In this document: positions 3,899 through 55,433 of the stretch, piece by piece
Layout of the letters: every line of letters begins with the position of its first letter
How positions within the stretch are numbered: position 1 is the first letter of the stretch
Source: Kutzneria viridogrisea
GTDB lineage: Bacteria > Actinomycetota > Actinomycetes > Mycobacteriales > Pseudonocardiaceae
NCBI GenBank assembly: GCA_014138725.1
Contig: JACJID010000002.1
Location: 944,001-1,008,000, forward strand
Length of the DNA stretch: 64,000 nucleotides
Direction of reading: 5' to 3'
Translations under genes and position numbers: made by a program
The notes under the pieces: model-generated
Database searches by the model: none
What the model saw: only the letters and a program-made list of their open reading frames with translations
What the model was told of the DNA's origin: nothing

Positions 3899-4063
3899 TC
3901 AGCCCGAGACGTACCAGGCGACGGCCCCGCCCACGGCGAGGGCGGCCAGCACGCCGAGGATCACGGCCATGACCTTGGCGGTCTTCCAGGTGGTGTAGAC
4001 CCCGCCGACGAGGAAACCGGCCACCGCGAGCAGCCCCACGGTGATCCACTGACTGGTGCTCAT
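3899..4063 (-). CDS. small two-helix membrane protein
   Basis: This 54-residue protein has two hydrophobic helices, about residues 8-23 (VGLLAVAGFLVGGVY) and 31-51 (VMAVILGVLAALAVGGAVAWYV), joined by a short TTWKTAK linker. The ATG at 4063 overlaps the stop of an upstream mini-ORF as ATGA and has an AGGTGGGGG site in front. It is the last gene of the hisD-hisC-hisB run. I do not recognise a family. Its place after hisB, where hisH would normally follow, suggests it is a resident of the operon with no proven role in histidine synthesis. Confidence 0.7.
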   Translation of the reverse strand: MSTSQWITVGLLAVAGFLVGGVYTTWKTAKVMAVILGVLAALAVGGAVAWYVSG

Positions 4064-4136
4064 GCCCCCACCTCGCTGGCGCTCGGCGCGTGCGTTCGCG
4101 CGGTCGCAGTGTTGAACGGTTCGCCCGCGAGCTCGC

Positions 4137-4140
<4 letters not shown>
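4060..4140 (-). CDS. 26-codon MSELA mini-ORF coupling hisB to the next gene
   Basis: A GTG at 4140 opens a 26-residue frame beginning [10 protein letters not shown]. Its start overlaps the hisB stop as GTGA, and its stop overlaps the start of the small membrane-protein gene as ATGA. Two more frames of exactly the same length and the same MSELA beginning lie at 43367-43447 and 54544-54624. The DNA ends with GAGCGCCAGCGAGGTGGGG, which supplies the ribosome binding site of the following gene. It could act as a translational coupler, with ribosomes terminating on the next start codon. Whether the peptide itself matters is unknown. Confidence 0.55.

Positions 4141-8353
<4,213 letters not shown>

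Positions 8354-42440: not shown

Positions 42441-42444
<4 letters not shown>
41941..42444 (+). CDS. membrane protein of the WXG-like operon
   Basis: The 167-residue protein has four hydrophobic helices (for example [57 protein letters not shown] and [20 protein letters not shown]). The ATG at 41941 overlaps the previous stop as ATGA. Its TAG stop overlaps the convergent pseudouridine synthase stop through the shared CTAG. It closes the five-gene operon; no family recognised. Confidence 0.75.
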
Positions 42445-43366
<922 letters not shown>

Positions 43367-43370
<4 letters not shown>

Positions 43371-43447
43371 GGGACACTCCTCGCTGACGCTCGTCGGCCC
43401 GCGAGCGGGCTCCCAGTGCTCAATGGTGAGCTCGCGAGCTCGCTCAC
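43367..43447 (-). CDS. 26-codon MSELA mini-ORF coupling lspA to the pseudouridine synthase gene
   Basis: A GTG at 43447 overlaps the lspA stop as GTGA and opens exactly 26 codons beginning [10 protein letters not shown]; the TGA overlaps the next gene's GTG as GTGA. The DNA ends with GAGCGTCAGCGAGGAGTG, which carries the next gene's ribosome binding site. It is the second member of the family (see 4060-4140 and 54544-54624). The start region GCGAGCTCGC is also self-complementary. Confidence 0.55.
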
Positions 43448-44007
43448 TTGTCCCCTGCCTTCTCCTTGGTCGAACGACCGTCGTAGTCGCGGCCGAGCAG
43501 CGCCATCAGCACGATCAGCGCGCCGCCGACGCAGATGGCGGAGTCAGCCAGGTTGAAGATCGGGAACACCTGGGCGTTGGGCGCGAACACGGAGATGAAG
43601 TCCACCACGTGGCCCTGCAACGCCCCCGGCGCGCGGAACAGCCGGTCAAGCAGGTTACCCAGCGCACCGCCGAACACCAGGCCCAGGCCCAGTGCCCAGC
43701 CGCGCGAGCGCAGCTTGGGCGCCACCCAGATGATCGCGGCCAGCACGCCGACGCAGACCAGGCTGAACACCCAGGTCATGCCGGTGACACCGAGCGAGAA
43801 CGCGGCGTAGGGGTTTCGGATCACCTGGAAGTAGACCAGCCCGCCCAGTGCCTCGATCGGCGGCTTGCCCTCCAGGTTGGACACCACGACCGTCTTGGTC
43901 ACGACGTCGAGCAGCAGTGCGACGACCGCGGCGGCGGCCAGCAGCCCGATCCGGCGCGGCAGGATGGCCTGCCCGGCAGCCGGTTCGGTGTTGGGCTCGG
44001 TACTCAC
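43444..44007 (-). CDS. lspA: lipoprotein signal peptidase (signal peptidase II)
   Basis: LspA cleaves lipoprotein signal peptides after lipidation. The 187-residue protein has four transmembrane helices and the two catalytic Asp motifs: [11 protein letters not shown] and [22 protein letters not shown] and the conserved NPYAAFSLG are present. The GTG at 44007 has GGGGGA upstream. It follows the SAM-IV-controlled aminotransferase by 25 bp, so it may share that transcript. Confidence 0.96.
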
Positions 44008-44032
44008 CCGGCCATTGTCCCCCGAGCCCCGC

Positions 44033-45376
44033 TCAGCCCGCGACGAAGGGCGGCAACGGGCGCTGGTCGTCCACCGGCACCCACCGGCCGTCCACCTGGT
44101 GGTAGGCGGCGCGCGGCCCCTCGGCGACCAGCCTGCGCAGCGCGCCGACCAGCCGGTCCACGTGCTCGGCGGTGCTGCCCAGGCCCAGGCTGGCGCGCAG
44201 CGCGCGCTGCTCGGTGGACCCGGCTCGGCCCAGCAGCCTGCGGGTCGCGATGTGCGCGCAGAACGCGCCGTCGCGGACGCCGATGCCGTACTCGGCGGAC
44301 AGCGCCGCGGCGACCAGACCCGCGTCCAGGCCGTCGATGGTGAAGCTGACCACGCCAACCCGGTCGTGCTCGGCGTCGAACAGGCTCAGCTCGTGCAGCC
44401 CCGGCACGGTGGCCAGCCCCTCGCGCAGCCGCGCCAGCAGCGTGCGCTCGTGCGCCTCGACCTGGTCCCAGCCGTGCTGGATGAACGTGTCGCAGGCGGC
44501 GGCCAGCGCGTGCACGCCGGCCACGTTGGGCGAACCGGCCTCGTGCCGCTCCGGCACCGCGGACCAGGCCACACCCAGGTGGTCGCCCCAGTCCACGACG
44601 TTCTTCGTGGCACCTCCGCCGACCAGGTACGGGTCCGCGGCCTGCAACCAGTCGGCCCGCCCGATCAGCGCGCCCGCGCCGAACGGGGCGTAGAGCTTGT
44701 GCCCGGACAGCACCACGTAGTCCACGTCCAGGGCCTTGATGTCCACCGGGCGGTGCGGGGCCAGCTGCGCGGCGTCCAGCACGATGCGCGCGCCGTGACG
44801 GCGTGCCACCTGGGCCAGCTCGGCCACCGGCCACAGCTCGCCGGTGACGTTGGACGCGCCGGTGACGACCACCAGCCGTGGGCCCTGCGGGCACTCGCGC
44901 AGCGCGGCCTCCAGCGCGGGCACGGCGGCACCGGCCGAGTCGGGGGTGCGCACCCGGCGGACGTTCGGCCCGCGCCAGGGCAGCAGCGCCGCGTGGTGCT
45001 CGGTGTCGAACAGCACCACGGCGGTGCGCCTGGGCAGGCTGCGCGCCAACAGGTTGAGCGAGTCGGTGGTGTTGCGGGTGAACACGACGGTGTCGGAGGA
45101 CCGGGCGCCCACGAAGCGGCGCAGCGTGTCGCGGGCCTGCTCGTACACGCGGGTGCTGACCTGGGAGGCCAGGCCCGCGCCGCGGTGCACGCTCGCGTAC
45201 CAGGGCAGCAGTTCGTTGACGGCGTCGCGGACCCGCTCCAGACAGGGCGCGCTCGCCGCGTGGTCGAGGTTGGCGTAACCGATGCGGTCGCCGGTCACCA
45301 GCGGCACGCAGAGCTGGGCGCCGACCACGGCGGGAACGGTGTAGCCGGTGCGGGCCTGCGGGATCGTGGACGTCAT
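44033..45376 (-). CDS. class V aminotransferase / cysteine desulfurase-like, under a SAM-IV riboswitch
   Basis: The 447-residue PLP enzyme has NLDHAASAPCLERV at the N-terminus, FTRNTTDSLNLLA, VVTGASNVTGELWP, VLDAAQLAPHRPVD and the PLP lysine in VLSGHKLYAPFGAGAL, as in the cysteine desulfurase-like clade; GVRDGAFCAHI has the C-terminal cysteine-containing segment typical of SufS-like proteins. It may mobilise sulfur or make a related lyase product. The SAM-IV leader implies repression when SAM is abundant and a role in methionine or sulfur metabolism. The ATG at 45376 has GGAGG upstream, next to a GGGTC/GACCC hairpin. Confidence 0.88.
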   Translation of the reverse strand: MTSTIPQARTGYTVPAVVGAQLCVPLVTGDRIGYANLDHAASAPCLERVRDAVNELLPWYASVHRGAGLASQVSTRVYEQARDTLRRFVGARSSDTVVFTRNTTDSLNLLARSLPRRTAVVLFDTEHHAALLPWRGPNVRRVRTPDSAGAAVPALEAALRECPQGPRLVVVTGASNVTGELWPVAELAQVARRHGARIVLDAAQLAPHRPVDIKALDVDYVVLSGHKLYAPFGAGALIGRADWLQAADPYLVGGGATKNVVDWGDHLGVAWSAVPERHEAGSPNVAGVHALAAACDTFIQHGWDQVEAHERTLLARLREGLATVPGLHELSLFDAEHDRVGVVSFTIDGLDAGLVAAALSAEYGIGVRDGAFCAHIATRRLLGRAGSTEQRALRASLGLGSTAEHVDRLVGALRRLVAEGPRAAYHQVDGRWVPVDDQRPLPPFVAG

Positions 45377-45406: not shown

Positions 45407-45522
45407 GGCCCGCGCTTGCCCGTCGCGTTCTCGCCACGGACCTGGTCCTCACCCGGGGCACCCCACCGCGGTAGGAGGGTTGCCGGCCAGCTAGCCGGGG
45501 CTTGTCGCTGGCACTCATGACC
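45407..45522 (-). ncRNA. SAM-IV riboswitch
   Basis: On the minus strand the core reads GGTCATGAGTGCCAGCG, then AAGCCCCGGC, GCCGGCAACCCTCC, CCGCGGTGGGGTGCCCCGGG and GTGAGGACC, followed by the 3' element GGCAAGCGCGGG. Order and conserved bases match the SAM-IV class, with the basal stem GGTC/GACC (45519-45522 with 45444-45447) and the terminal pseudoknot region. Control is likely translational, because a GGGTC/GACCC hairpin lies beside the ribosome binding site of the gene 30 bp downstream. Confidence 0.9.
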
Positions 45523-53908: not shown

Positions 53909-54547
53909 TCAGGACTGGGTGAAGAACCCACCCTCGGCCAGCCGCCTGCGGTCCTCGGCGGTCACGTCGATATTGGGGGGTGAGAGAAGGAACACCTTGT
54001 TGGTGACCTTGTCCATCGAGCCGCGCAGCGCGAAGGCGAGCCCGGCCGCGAAGTCCACGAGCCGCTTGGCGTCCGCGTTGTCCATCTCGGTCAGGTTGAT
54101 GATCACCGGCGTGCCGTCGCGGTAGTGCTCACCGATCGTGCGCGCCTCGGTGTAGCTTCGCGGGTGCAGCGTAATGATCTTGGCGAGCGGGTGGGAGCTG
54201 GTCTCCTGGGCGGGCCGGATCCGGGCGACCGGCTCGGGCTTGGGCTCCACGGCCAGCGCCCCGTGCGTTGGCGCCTCGGTCGCCCAGCTGCGACGGCTGC
54301 GCGGGCGCTCCTCGGGCACCTCGTAGCCGTCCTCGTCGTAGTCCCGGTACGAGGACCGGGAGGACAGCGAGGTGGGTGCCGAGCCGCGGCGACGGGTCGA
54401 GGACGGGTAGCGGTCGTAGTCCTCGGAGGTGCCGGCGTACTCGTCGCGGTAGTCCGCGGCGTACCGGCCGCGGTCCTCCTCGTAGCCGTCCATGTCCTCG
54501 GCGGGGACCATCCCGAAGTAGGCCTTCAGCTTCTGCAGTGCGCTCAT
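53909..54547 (-). CDS. sepF: cell division protein SepF
   Basis: SepF anchors FtsZ to the membrane. The 212-residue protein has an N-terminal amphipathic segment (MSALQKLKAYFGMVP), an acidic and serine-rich linker, and a C-terminal SepF core (PVIINLTEMDNADAKRLVDF, then AGLAFALRGSMDKVTNKVF). Its ATG at 54547 overlaps the stop of a 26-codon mini-ORF as ATGA. Operon with yggT and divIVA downstream. Confidence 0.95.
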   Translation of the reverse strand: MSALQKLKAYFGMVPAEDMDGYEEDRGRYAADYRDEYAGTSEDYDRYPSSTRRRGSAPTSLSSRSSYRDYDEDGYEVPEERPRSRRSWATEAPTHGALAVEPKPEPVARIRPAQETSSHPLAKIITLHPRSYTEARTIGEHYRDGTPVIINLTEMDNADAKRLVDFAAGLAFALRGSMDKVTNKVFLLSPPNIDVTAEDRRRLAEGGFFTQS

Positions 54548-54624
54548 CGCCGCACCTCACTGACGCTCGGTGCGGCGCTGCGCGCAGGCACCGGGCTTGA
54601 TGATCCGCTCGCAAGCTCGCTCAT
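54544..54624 (-). CDS. 26-codon MSELA mini-ORF coupled to sepF
   Basis: The ATG at 54624 has its own GGAGGAAGGG site and opens exactly 26 codons beginning MSELASGSSS; its TGA overlaps the sepF ATG as ATGA. Unlike the other two members it does not touch the upstream gene (yggS ends 81 bp away), so it could be the place where ribosomes load for sepF. The DNA ends GAGCGTCAGTGAGGTGCGG, again carrying the downstream ribosome binding site. Confidence 0.55.
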   Translation of the reverse strand: MSELASGSSSPVPARSAAPSVSEVRR

Positions 54625-54704: not shown

Positions 54705-55433
54705 TCACGGCGAGGCTAGCCCCCTGTACCCCAACAGCGCAGTTCCGACACGCACGCAGGTCGAGCCGTGCGCGATCGCGGCCTCGAGGTCCCCGCTCAT
54801 CCCGGCGGAGACCTCGATTGCCTCCGGATGGTCCTTGCGCAGGCGATCCACGGCCGTCGCGAGGAGTTCGAAGGCTGCCGGGGGAAGCATGGCGCGTGGA
54901 GCCACCGTCATCACCCCCCGCAAGATCAGTTCACCCGATTGGACTACTGCGTCGGCGAGCTCGGGCAGATCCGACAACACAGCGCCACCACGCTCCGGAT
55001 CCCCGTCCAGACTGGCCTGCAGCAGCACGCTGAGCGGCTCGGTGCGCTCCCCCCTGGTGCGGGCGGCCGCCACGGCCTTCGCGAGCGCCACGGCGAGCCT
55101 GGGCGAGTCCACGGACTGCACCTCGTCCGCCCATCCCACGATCGAGCGAGCCTTGTTCCGCTGCACGTGGCCCACCATGTGCCAGCGCACCGCCGCACCC
55201 GGCCGGGCCGCGGCCAGCTCGACGGCCTTCGGCGCGGCCTCCTGGTCCCGGTTCTCGGCGAACTCGGTCAGCCCCAGGTCGACCAGGTGGGCGACATCGG
55301 CGGCGGGCCAGGTCTTGGTCACCGCGAGCAGCCGGACCTCGCCCGGGTCCCGCCCGGCGTAGGCGCAGGCGGACTGGATGCGCGCCTGGATCTCGGCCAG
55401 CCCGGCGGCAAGCTCCGCACGGCGATCGGTCAT
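54705..55433 (-). CDS. yggS: YggS-family PLP homeostasis protein
   Basis: The 242-residue protein has the PLP lysine in LLAVTKTWPAADV and the YggS/PROSC features FAENRDQEAAPK, WHMVGHVQRNKA and a C-terminal SAGMSGDLEAAIAHGSTCVRVGTALLG. Members bind PLP without catalysis and keep vitamin B6 and amino-acid pools in balance. The ATG at 55433 overlaps the pgeF stop as ATGA. Conserved neighbour of ftsZ and sepF. Confidence 0.95.
   Translation of the reverse strand: MTDRRAELAAGLAEIQARIQSACAYAGRDPGEVRLLAVTKTWPAADVAHLVDLGLTEFAENRDQEAAPKAVELAAARPGAAVRWHMVGHVQRNKARSIVGWADEVQSVDSPRLAVALAKAVAAARTRGERTEPLSVLLQASLDGDPERGGAVLSDLPELADAVVQSGELILRGVMTVAPRAMLPPAAFELLATAVDRLRKDHPEAIEVSAGMSGDLEAAIAHGSTCVRVGTALLGYRGLASP

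Follow-up and report, generated by a model that had tools for sequence, protein, structure and literature searches.

The three minus-strand reading frames of 81 bases in the window, that is the whole 64,000-nucleotide stretch that was analysed (C2:944001-1008000 of the 10.25-Mb Kutzneria genome), are very probably copies of a MIRU-like mobile element that is non-autonomous, inserts at start codons and carries a mini-frame acting as a translational coupler, the coupling and the opening of a hairpin by the ribosome being the inferred part. Comparison of sequences establishes the dispersal of the element, its insertion at start codons, the empty places in relatives, the keeping of the frame, the covariation in the hairpin and the lack of conservation of the peptide.

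In the proposed mechanism a unit of about 77 bases would insert at a DTGA overlapping the start of a gene, and often the stop of the upstream gene as well, leaving DTGA at both ends. The mini-frame would be driven by the host's own ribosome site or by the upstream cistron, and its TGA stop would overlap the new start of the host gene. The element would bring a ribosome site (GAGG) inside a hairpin. Ribosomes moving along the mini-frame would melt this hairpin and then start again at the host gene, which would make insertion nearly harmless.

Copy 1 (4060..4140, minus strand; genome match C2:948058-948140) measures 81 bases including both DTGA and belongs to the exact-overlap class. It lies between hisB (4137..4736, minus strand; NF002110, 353 bits) and a gene for a 54-aa membrane-like protein (3899..4063, minus strand), which is called membrane-like by eye from its hydrophobicity and found no match in Pfam and NCBIfam. 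The TGA stop of hisB overlaps the GTG start of the mini-frame in a GTGA at 4137..4140 (minus strand), and an ATGA at 4060..4063 (minus strand) combines the stop of the mini-frame with the start codon of the membrane-like protein. The conserved GAGCGCCAGCGAGG at 4071..4084 (minus strand) makes up the loop of the family hairpin and likely the ribosome binding site of the downstream gene. Small frames similar to the 54-aa protein sit after hisB in Kutzneria relatives, and five of six of these relatives have GTGATG at this point without the element.

Copy 2 (43367..43447, minus strand), a mini-frame of 26 codons, starts with a GTG overlapped by the stop of an lspA open frame (43444..44358, minus strand; TIGR00077 and NF011354) whose signal peptidase II homology lies in residues 120-302. 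Downstream of it is an RluA-family pseudouridine synthase (42441..43370, minus strand; TIGR00005, 278 bits). Its conserved GAGCGTCAGCGAGG occupies 43379..43392 (minus strand), and its bases 19-22 are TCAC, complementary to its own left GTGA. Copy 3 (54544..54624, minus strand) has the mini-frame MSELASGSSSPVPARSAAPSVSEVRR, followed by the stop, and precedes sepF (53909..54547, minus strand; PF04472); its conserved GAGCGTCAGTGAGG at 54555..54568 (minus strand) lies within a predicted 8- to 9-pair hairpin. The next gene upstream of copy 3, which is yggS-like (54705..55433, minus strand; TIGR00044), does not overlap it.

Reading and translating the three frames bore out the layout given by the original prediction. 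All are exactly 81 bases long and start RTGAGCGAGCT, all finish with an (A/G)TGA overlapping the next start (that of the 54-aa protein, the RluA-family synthase and SepF, respectively), all share the conserved end GAGCGYCAGYGAGG with zero mismatches, and copy 1 overlaps both neighbours, by GTGA on the left and ATGA on the right. The description of all three as filling gaps inside operons holds for copies 1 and 2, which overlap the stops of hisB and lspA. Copy 3 cannot be called an operon gap in that way, because it has no upstream overlap and stands about 80 bases past the yggS-like gene, after a stretch resembling a ribosome site.

The sole Rfam match in the window is a SAM-IV riboswitch (45407-45522, minus strand, 119.8 bits), elsewhere than the elements. 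It lies about 30 bases upstream of the gene for a 447-aa protein that is cysteine-desulfurase-like (SufS-like), with a score below the cut-off of that family.

A covariance model built from 28 selected 81-base copies gave 89 matches in the genome at E ≤1, the best E-values reaching 1e-29. The 84 matches used comprise 82 with E ≤1e-3 and two short ones (0.003 and 0.027), the other five being dropped. They make up 74 insertions in this one genome, of which 66 are single, six double and two triple, so that tandem arrays of two or three matches account for 8/74; the unit is about 77 bases. Tandem units of 74-78 bases are seen at L013, L016, L038, L053, L061 and L070. Units of 78 bases form one continuous frame, and at the junction of a 77-base unit in L016 the frame ends and begins anew. 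The earlier reading as a dispersed element between genes is well supported by the 74 insertions, their lineage-specific placing at start codons and the tandem arrays, whereas its fixed length of 26 codons had to be given up. That length is true of the three window copies and of most others, but mini-frames of 10, 12, 16, 17, 19, 27 and 28 codons also occur, those of tandem arrays have 50, 52 and 78 codons, and the family spans 10 to 78.

The places occupied by the element were compared in 16 genomes, namely six Kutzneria, nine from other genera of the family and one of another family. The hisB, sepF and rluD places each gave no model match in 16/16 relatives, and the pgl place gave none in 10/10; the junctions are directly comparable mainly in Kutzneria, and in several other genera the next gene is different or more distant. 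Matches in the relatives were inspected; those of L204 (24 bits) and L206 (17.9 bits) are on the other strand and off the rluD start, and that of L190 has 14.9 bits. At the sepF place six Kutzneria have a ribosome site followed by ATGAGT or ATGAGC; with the element the order is ribosome site, ATGAGCGAGC ... GCG, ATGAGCGCA. At the pgl place six Kutzneria have GTGA and the copy has GTGA on the left and ATGA on the right, which indicates that the host supplied the left D and the element brought the right one. Base 1 equals the host base at all four places of the own genome with comparable relatives (hisB, sepF, rluD and pgl). The left and right D are often unlike in the 40 own copies (G left and A right in 18) and are the same in 43 of 51 copies from named genomes.

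In two relatives, Kutzneria sp. 744 and K. buriramensis, the hisC-hisB junction contains a copy where hisB starts (L160:1427-1506 and L163:2092-2171), and the window genome and three other Kutzneria have none there. These copies and the window copy at the other end of hisB are independent insertions in the same operon. The left base of the two copies is A, and that of the empty junction is G in the three relatives and A in the window genome, which leaves the ancestral base uncertain. The family is real, mobile and MIRU-like, and coupling by its mini-frame is likely.

The 3' end of the element appears to fold. RNAalifold on 28 copies gave a 3' hairpin pairing bases 48-56 with 69-77, with double changes in 6/9 pairs. 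One left-side pair also had double changes; the left-side pairs were set aside once covariation pointed to bases 1 and 22. The stem was examined in distinct 83-base copies, 40 from the own genome and 49 from others. In the register i+j=125, 93% of cells are paired in the own copies and 70% in those of other genomes; registers slid by 1-6 reach no more than 67% and 47%. Double-changed cells number 31 and 70 in this register and at most 13 and 39 in the slid ones, and the arm-swap control gave 5.08 versus 4.22 (sd 0.12, maximum 4.59 of 200). In 15 Nocardia copies the stem reaches over the downstream start codon, with bases 47/78 C-G in 12 and T-A in three. In 13 copies of mycobacterial type the downstream start codon begins with a base that varies in step with its partner (U-A in 11, C-G in two). 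The GAGG ribosome site is at the edge of the hairpin loop. Four right hairpins folded in isolation had z of -2.5 to -5.2, two isolated left hairpins (z -0.11 and -0.87) were no better than shuffles, and whole-element folds of the window copies (z 1.11, -1.93 and -1.71) do not stand out.

A second covariation links the copy to its target. Among 237 copies collected with an anchor that leaves bases 1, 19, 20 and 22 free, bases 1 and 22 are G-C in 115, A-T in 101, G-T in 13 and A-C in eight, giving 216/237 Watson-Crick pairs; counting identical first 60 bases once leaves 109, 96, 13 and 7 of 225. This is the strongest covarying pair of columns in 167 distinct copies (APC-MI 0.600). A Fisher value would not be a fair probability here because the copies are related, and a kinship-controlled test was made on disjoint closest pairs, 55 of them separated by at most 10 differences. 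In 17 of these pairs base 22 had changed, and in 13 of the 17 base 1 had changed as well, all toward pairing, while base 1 changed in seven of the 38 pairs with base 22 unchanged (p 6e-5). Bases 19-20 are GA in 190/237 and TC in 35/237. In the TC copies the entire DTGA has its Watson-Crick complement, and 33/35 of them still pair at 1/22. The link between copy and target may reflect a guided choice of target, selection at a later stage or mutation by templating.

Guided choice is the basis of the strongest alternative to a hairpin that serves translation, an alternative which we consider a serious contender though the less probable reading. The terminal hairpins would then serve transposition as single-strand DNA ends for an HUH-type enzyme, bases 19-22 and 44-47 would guide the cuts at DTGA as in IS200/IS605, and coupling would merely let the copies survive. 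In IS200/IS605 elements, internal guide bases pair with the bases of the cleavage or target site. The present element may resemble them in having hairpins near its ends, the right one covarying strongly and the left one being suggested by bases 1/22 and 19-20 but folding no better than shuffles, and it has internal bases that covary with a target base. The rank of pair 1/22 above all other column pairs, the TC at bases 19-20 as partner of the GA in DTGA, the identity of base 1 with the host base at four of four places and the close-pair result (13/17 versus 7/38) all favour guiding, as does the rarity of an unpaired A-C at 1/22 both with upstream overlap (1/30) and without it (4/34). However, the left partner bases come after, not before, the left hairpin, and DTGA stands at both ends, unlike what is known of IS200/IS605. 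At the right end bases 47/78 are mostly G-A in the own genome (23/36) and their pairing is not significant in the close pairs (p 0.16). Five of 15 copies of a GNA-loop variant are unpaired at 1/22, and the left A of the two hisC-hisB copies differs from the G of three empty relatives, with the reservation about the ancestral base given above.

A wider proposal, tentative and with marginally less weight than the guide reading itself, joins guiding with coupling. The element would be a start-codon-guided single-strand transposon with its own translational coupler, would have spread through the order to which Mycobacterium belongs, and would have MIRU as its best-known branch. Bases 19-22 (GAAY or TCAY) would read the target DTGA, a T at base 22 directing the element to ATGA genes and a C to GTGA genes, and bases near 44-47 may serve the right end. 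PMC3116915, as far as its accessible text goes, cites work on transposon-directed target site selection, known here by its title.

Covariation could also arise from mutation. In quasipalindrome mutation, imperfect palindromes are corrected during replication by a templated process. The compensatory changes would then need neither selection nor a guide, and near-identical copies that differ at bases 1 and 22 together (L114 and L248, with one other difference) are what a single templated event would give. Yet the non-complementary GA at bases 19-20, which such correction should remove, persists in 190/237 copies, and we regard this explanation as unlikely.

The preferred reading, a mobile element with a mini-frame as coupler, draws on the way the mini-frame ends. 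In 47/74 insertions the mini-frame closes exactly on the DTGA with which a downstream ORF begins; of these 47 ORFs, 46 reach 60 codons or more and a GC3 of 0.8 or more, and the remaining one is the 54-aa gene of the window. A further 14/74 fuse in frame with a long ORF, with GC3 of 0.81-0.99 past the element. The left end is lost in 6/74, no class fits 2/74, and 2/74 stop one codon early, at GGTGATGA. Three of the 74 were scored as frame lost, one of them really being an array that restarts at the first junction. The copy at C1:236780 has lost its frame although an ORF of 501 codons or more follows it, without evident loss of that gene. The predicted tie between copies genome-wide and start overlaps is thus found in 47/74 insertions of the own genome, with varying lengths and a frame that is mostly kept, and the stop/start overlap is exact in 53/58 pattern matches in the named genomes. 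The exact overlaps (47/74), the fusions (14/74) and the hairpin at the downstream ribosome site suggest that translation of the mini-frame passes ribosomes to the next cistron.

Changes in length largely respect the frame. Of 13 single copies with indels and, by eye, both ends kept, 10 have indels in multiples of three, two are in-frame fusions and one has lost the frame; at least 10/13 would arise by chance with P 0.0016. Counting as failures C2:1441815, C5:228701, C6:290428 and C3:832248, which have DTGA at the model end and no recognisable right end, gives 10/17 and P 0.027. Arrays with 75+74-base units are in frame in total (3/3).

The frame might be kept for its product, the mini-frames being a functional family of small proteins (MSELA peptides) with a common N-terminus. 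In codons 2-26 synonymous and non-synonymous changes number 96/208, with 88/212 expected from the same spectrum (80/162 versus 73/166 without two copies that need gaps). Since synonymous changes are not in excess there is no constraint on the peptide, and an MSELA peptide gene was rejected on these counts; the stop count is uninformative in the 28 sequences, which were picked for an open 81-base frame. The middle is variable, copies shortened to as few as 10 codons survive, and the genes downstream of the element are unrelated to each other. By these comparisons the mini-frame is mostly kept while its peptide is not conserved, and a peptide function is very improbable.

Several elements of the own genome (L022, L062, L063, L065, L068, L080 and L150) have lost the right end and read in frame into host proteins, and mobile DNA therefore forms the N-terminus of these proteins. 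By eye the L022 fusion looks like an FAD oxidoreductase and that of L063 like a lipoprotein.

Chance similarity of short GC-rich intergenic sequence can be dismissed, since the 13-base left end matches exactly at 53 places genome-wide and at 181 with at most one mismatch, versus 40 for a reversed-pattern control, and the model reaches 1e-29, while the room left for chance lies in two three-mismatch window scans, not used as evidence, with 105 versus a shuffle mean of 76 (0/100 shuffles reach 105) and 85 versus 68 (5/100 reach 85). Fifty of the 53 exact left-end matches fall within the 84 model matches used; of the other three, C3:597215 is a further short copy missed by the model and C3:276375 and C6:677461 are not elements. 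An adenosine-deaminase-like gene (by eye) with an MSELA start of its own, on the minus strand of L066 near 1527, is a false positive of the left-end pattern.

MIRU were reportedly first described by Supply in 1997 in a work whose title points to the senX3-regX3 operon. As far as the accessible text of PMC12548453 goes, MIRU are apparently mobile, insert at start codons, carry an ORF whose coupling has a -4 spacing and are named as a case of translational coupling by short ORFs; the kind of element is thus already described in mycobacteria as MIRU. The accessible portions of PMC4213456 give units of 77 and 53 bases in senX3-regX3 and confine MIRU to M. leprae and the M. tuberculosis complex, and those of PMC2734929 give 40-100 bases and 41 places. 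Likened by architecture to these descriptions, the element appears to work like MIRU. Its 77-base unit and 74 insertions agree with a size of 40-100 bases and tens of places. It ends exactly at the downstream start (47/74 own, 53/58 in named genomes), inserts at start codons that are empty in relatives (0/16 filled at hisB, sepF and rluD each, 0/10 at pgl) and forms tandem arrays (8/74). One Kutzneria copy, C9:340211-340293 (L142:1512-1594), lies exactly between a senX3-like histidine kinase gene and a regX3 orthologue, which is the classical location of MIRU; the response regulator encoded by this orthologue has RegX3 2oqr as best PDB match (E 4e-118). It differs from MIRU in having a covarying 3' hairpin and a target-linked base, and in its occurrence in Kutzneria, Nocardia, Blastococcus, Amycolatopsis, Pseudonocardia and others, against the two mycobacterial groups named in the accessible text of PMC4213456.

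Other known systems fit less closely. REPIN/REP sequences, as described in the accessible part of PMC3116915, are likewise small non-autonomous repeats with compensatory hairpins, but REPINs are inverted REP doublets in extragenic space and the element occurs as directional single units, in frame, at gene starts; reading the sequences and positions of the 84 element sequences revealed no inverted REP pairs. In short-ORF coupling as PMC12548453 treats it in its accessible text, a stop/start overlap also passes ribosomes on, the difference being that here the short ORF rides on a mobile repeat. Among the matches listed in the open-access literature there was no description of the element outside mycobacteria, and a literature text search with 16 letters of the element retrieved no paper. 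New are the wide range, a 3' hairpin that covaries and lies at the ribosome site and start of the downstream gene, and the covariation of the first base of the target start with an internal base.

MIRU are a standard typing marker. An order-wide family that has inserted more than 70 times in a single soil bacterium, leaves clean empty places in relatives and shows a target-linked covariation makes their movement and their role testable outside a pathogen. Mobile DNA also repeatedly gives small reading frames and N-termini to conserved operons, and gene finders may misannotate them.

The range across the order was taken from the covariance model at a cut of 1e-6, some single weak matches (E ~1e-4) being possibly due to chance. 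At E ≤1e-6, 176/397 genomes match, in 36/86 genera. The exact pattern occurs in 56 stretches of the named genomes, from Kutzneria, Amycolatopsis, Pseudonocardia, Sciscionella, Saccharothrix, Solihabitans, Nocardia, Blastococcus, Actinospica and one Streptosporangiaceae MAG. The last two, which we take to be outside the order of the window, contain the element at L240 and L259, for which horizontal spread and binning error are both conceivable.

A 71-base version (MSDACERII...) occurs in a Mycobacterium-like genus belonging to the family of Nocardia, some of its copies being in tandem with a 65-base period. PE proteins were tried as a marker of the genus and are not decisive, as they occur in Nocardia too. 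In one genome PknA matches PDB 4x3f (E 1e-189) and EccC matches the ESX-3 EccC3 6lar (E 4e-215); from these matches, and the species presumed to be behind the two chains, the genus is very probably Mycobacterium. A model of the 71-base version matches 36/148 genomes of the genus at 1e-4, leaving 112 without it, and none of the 36 was identified as M. tuberculosis. In one Mycobacterium-like genome, G188, this version stands directly before pknA and before the ESX-3 gene eccC (L293:1501-1571 and L300:1501-1571).
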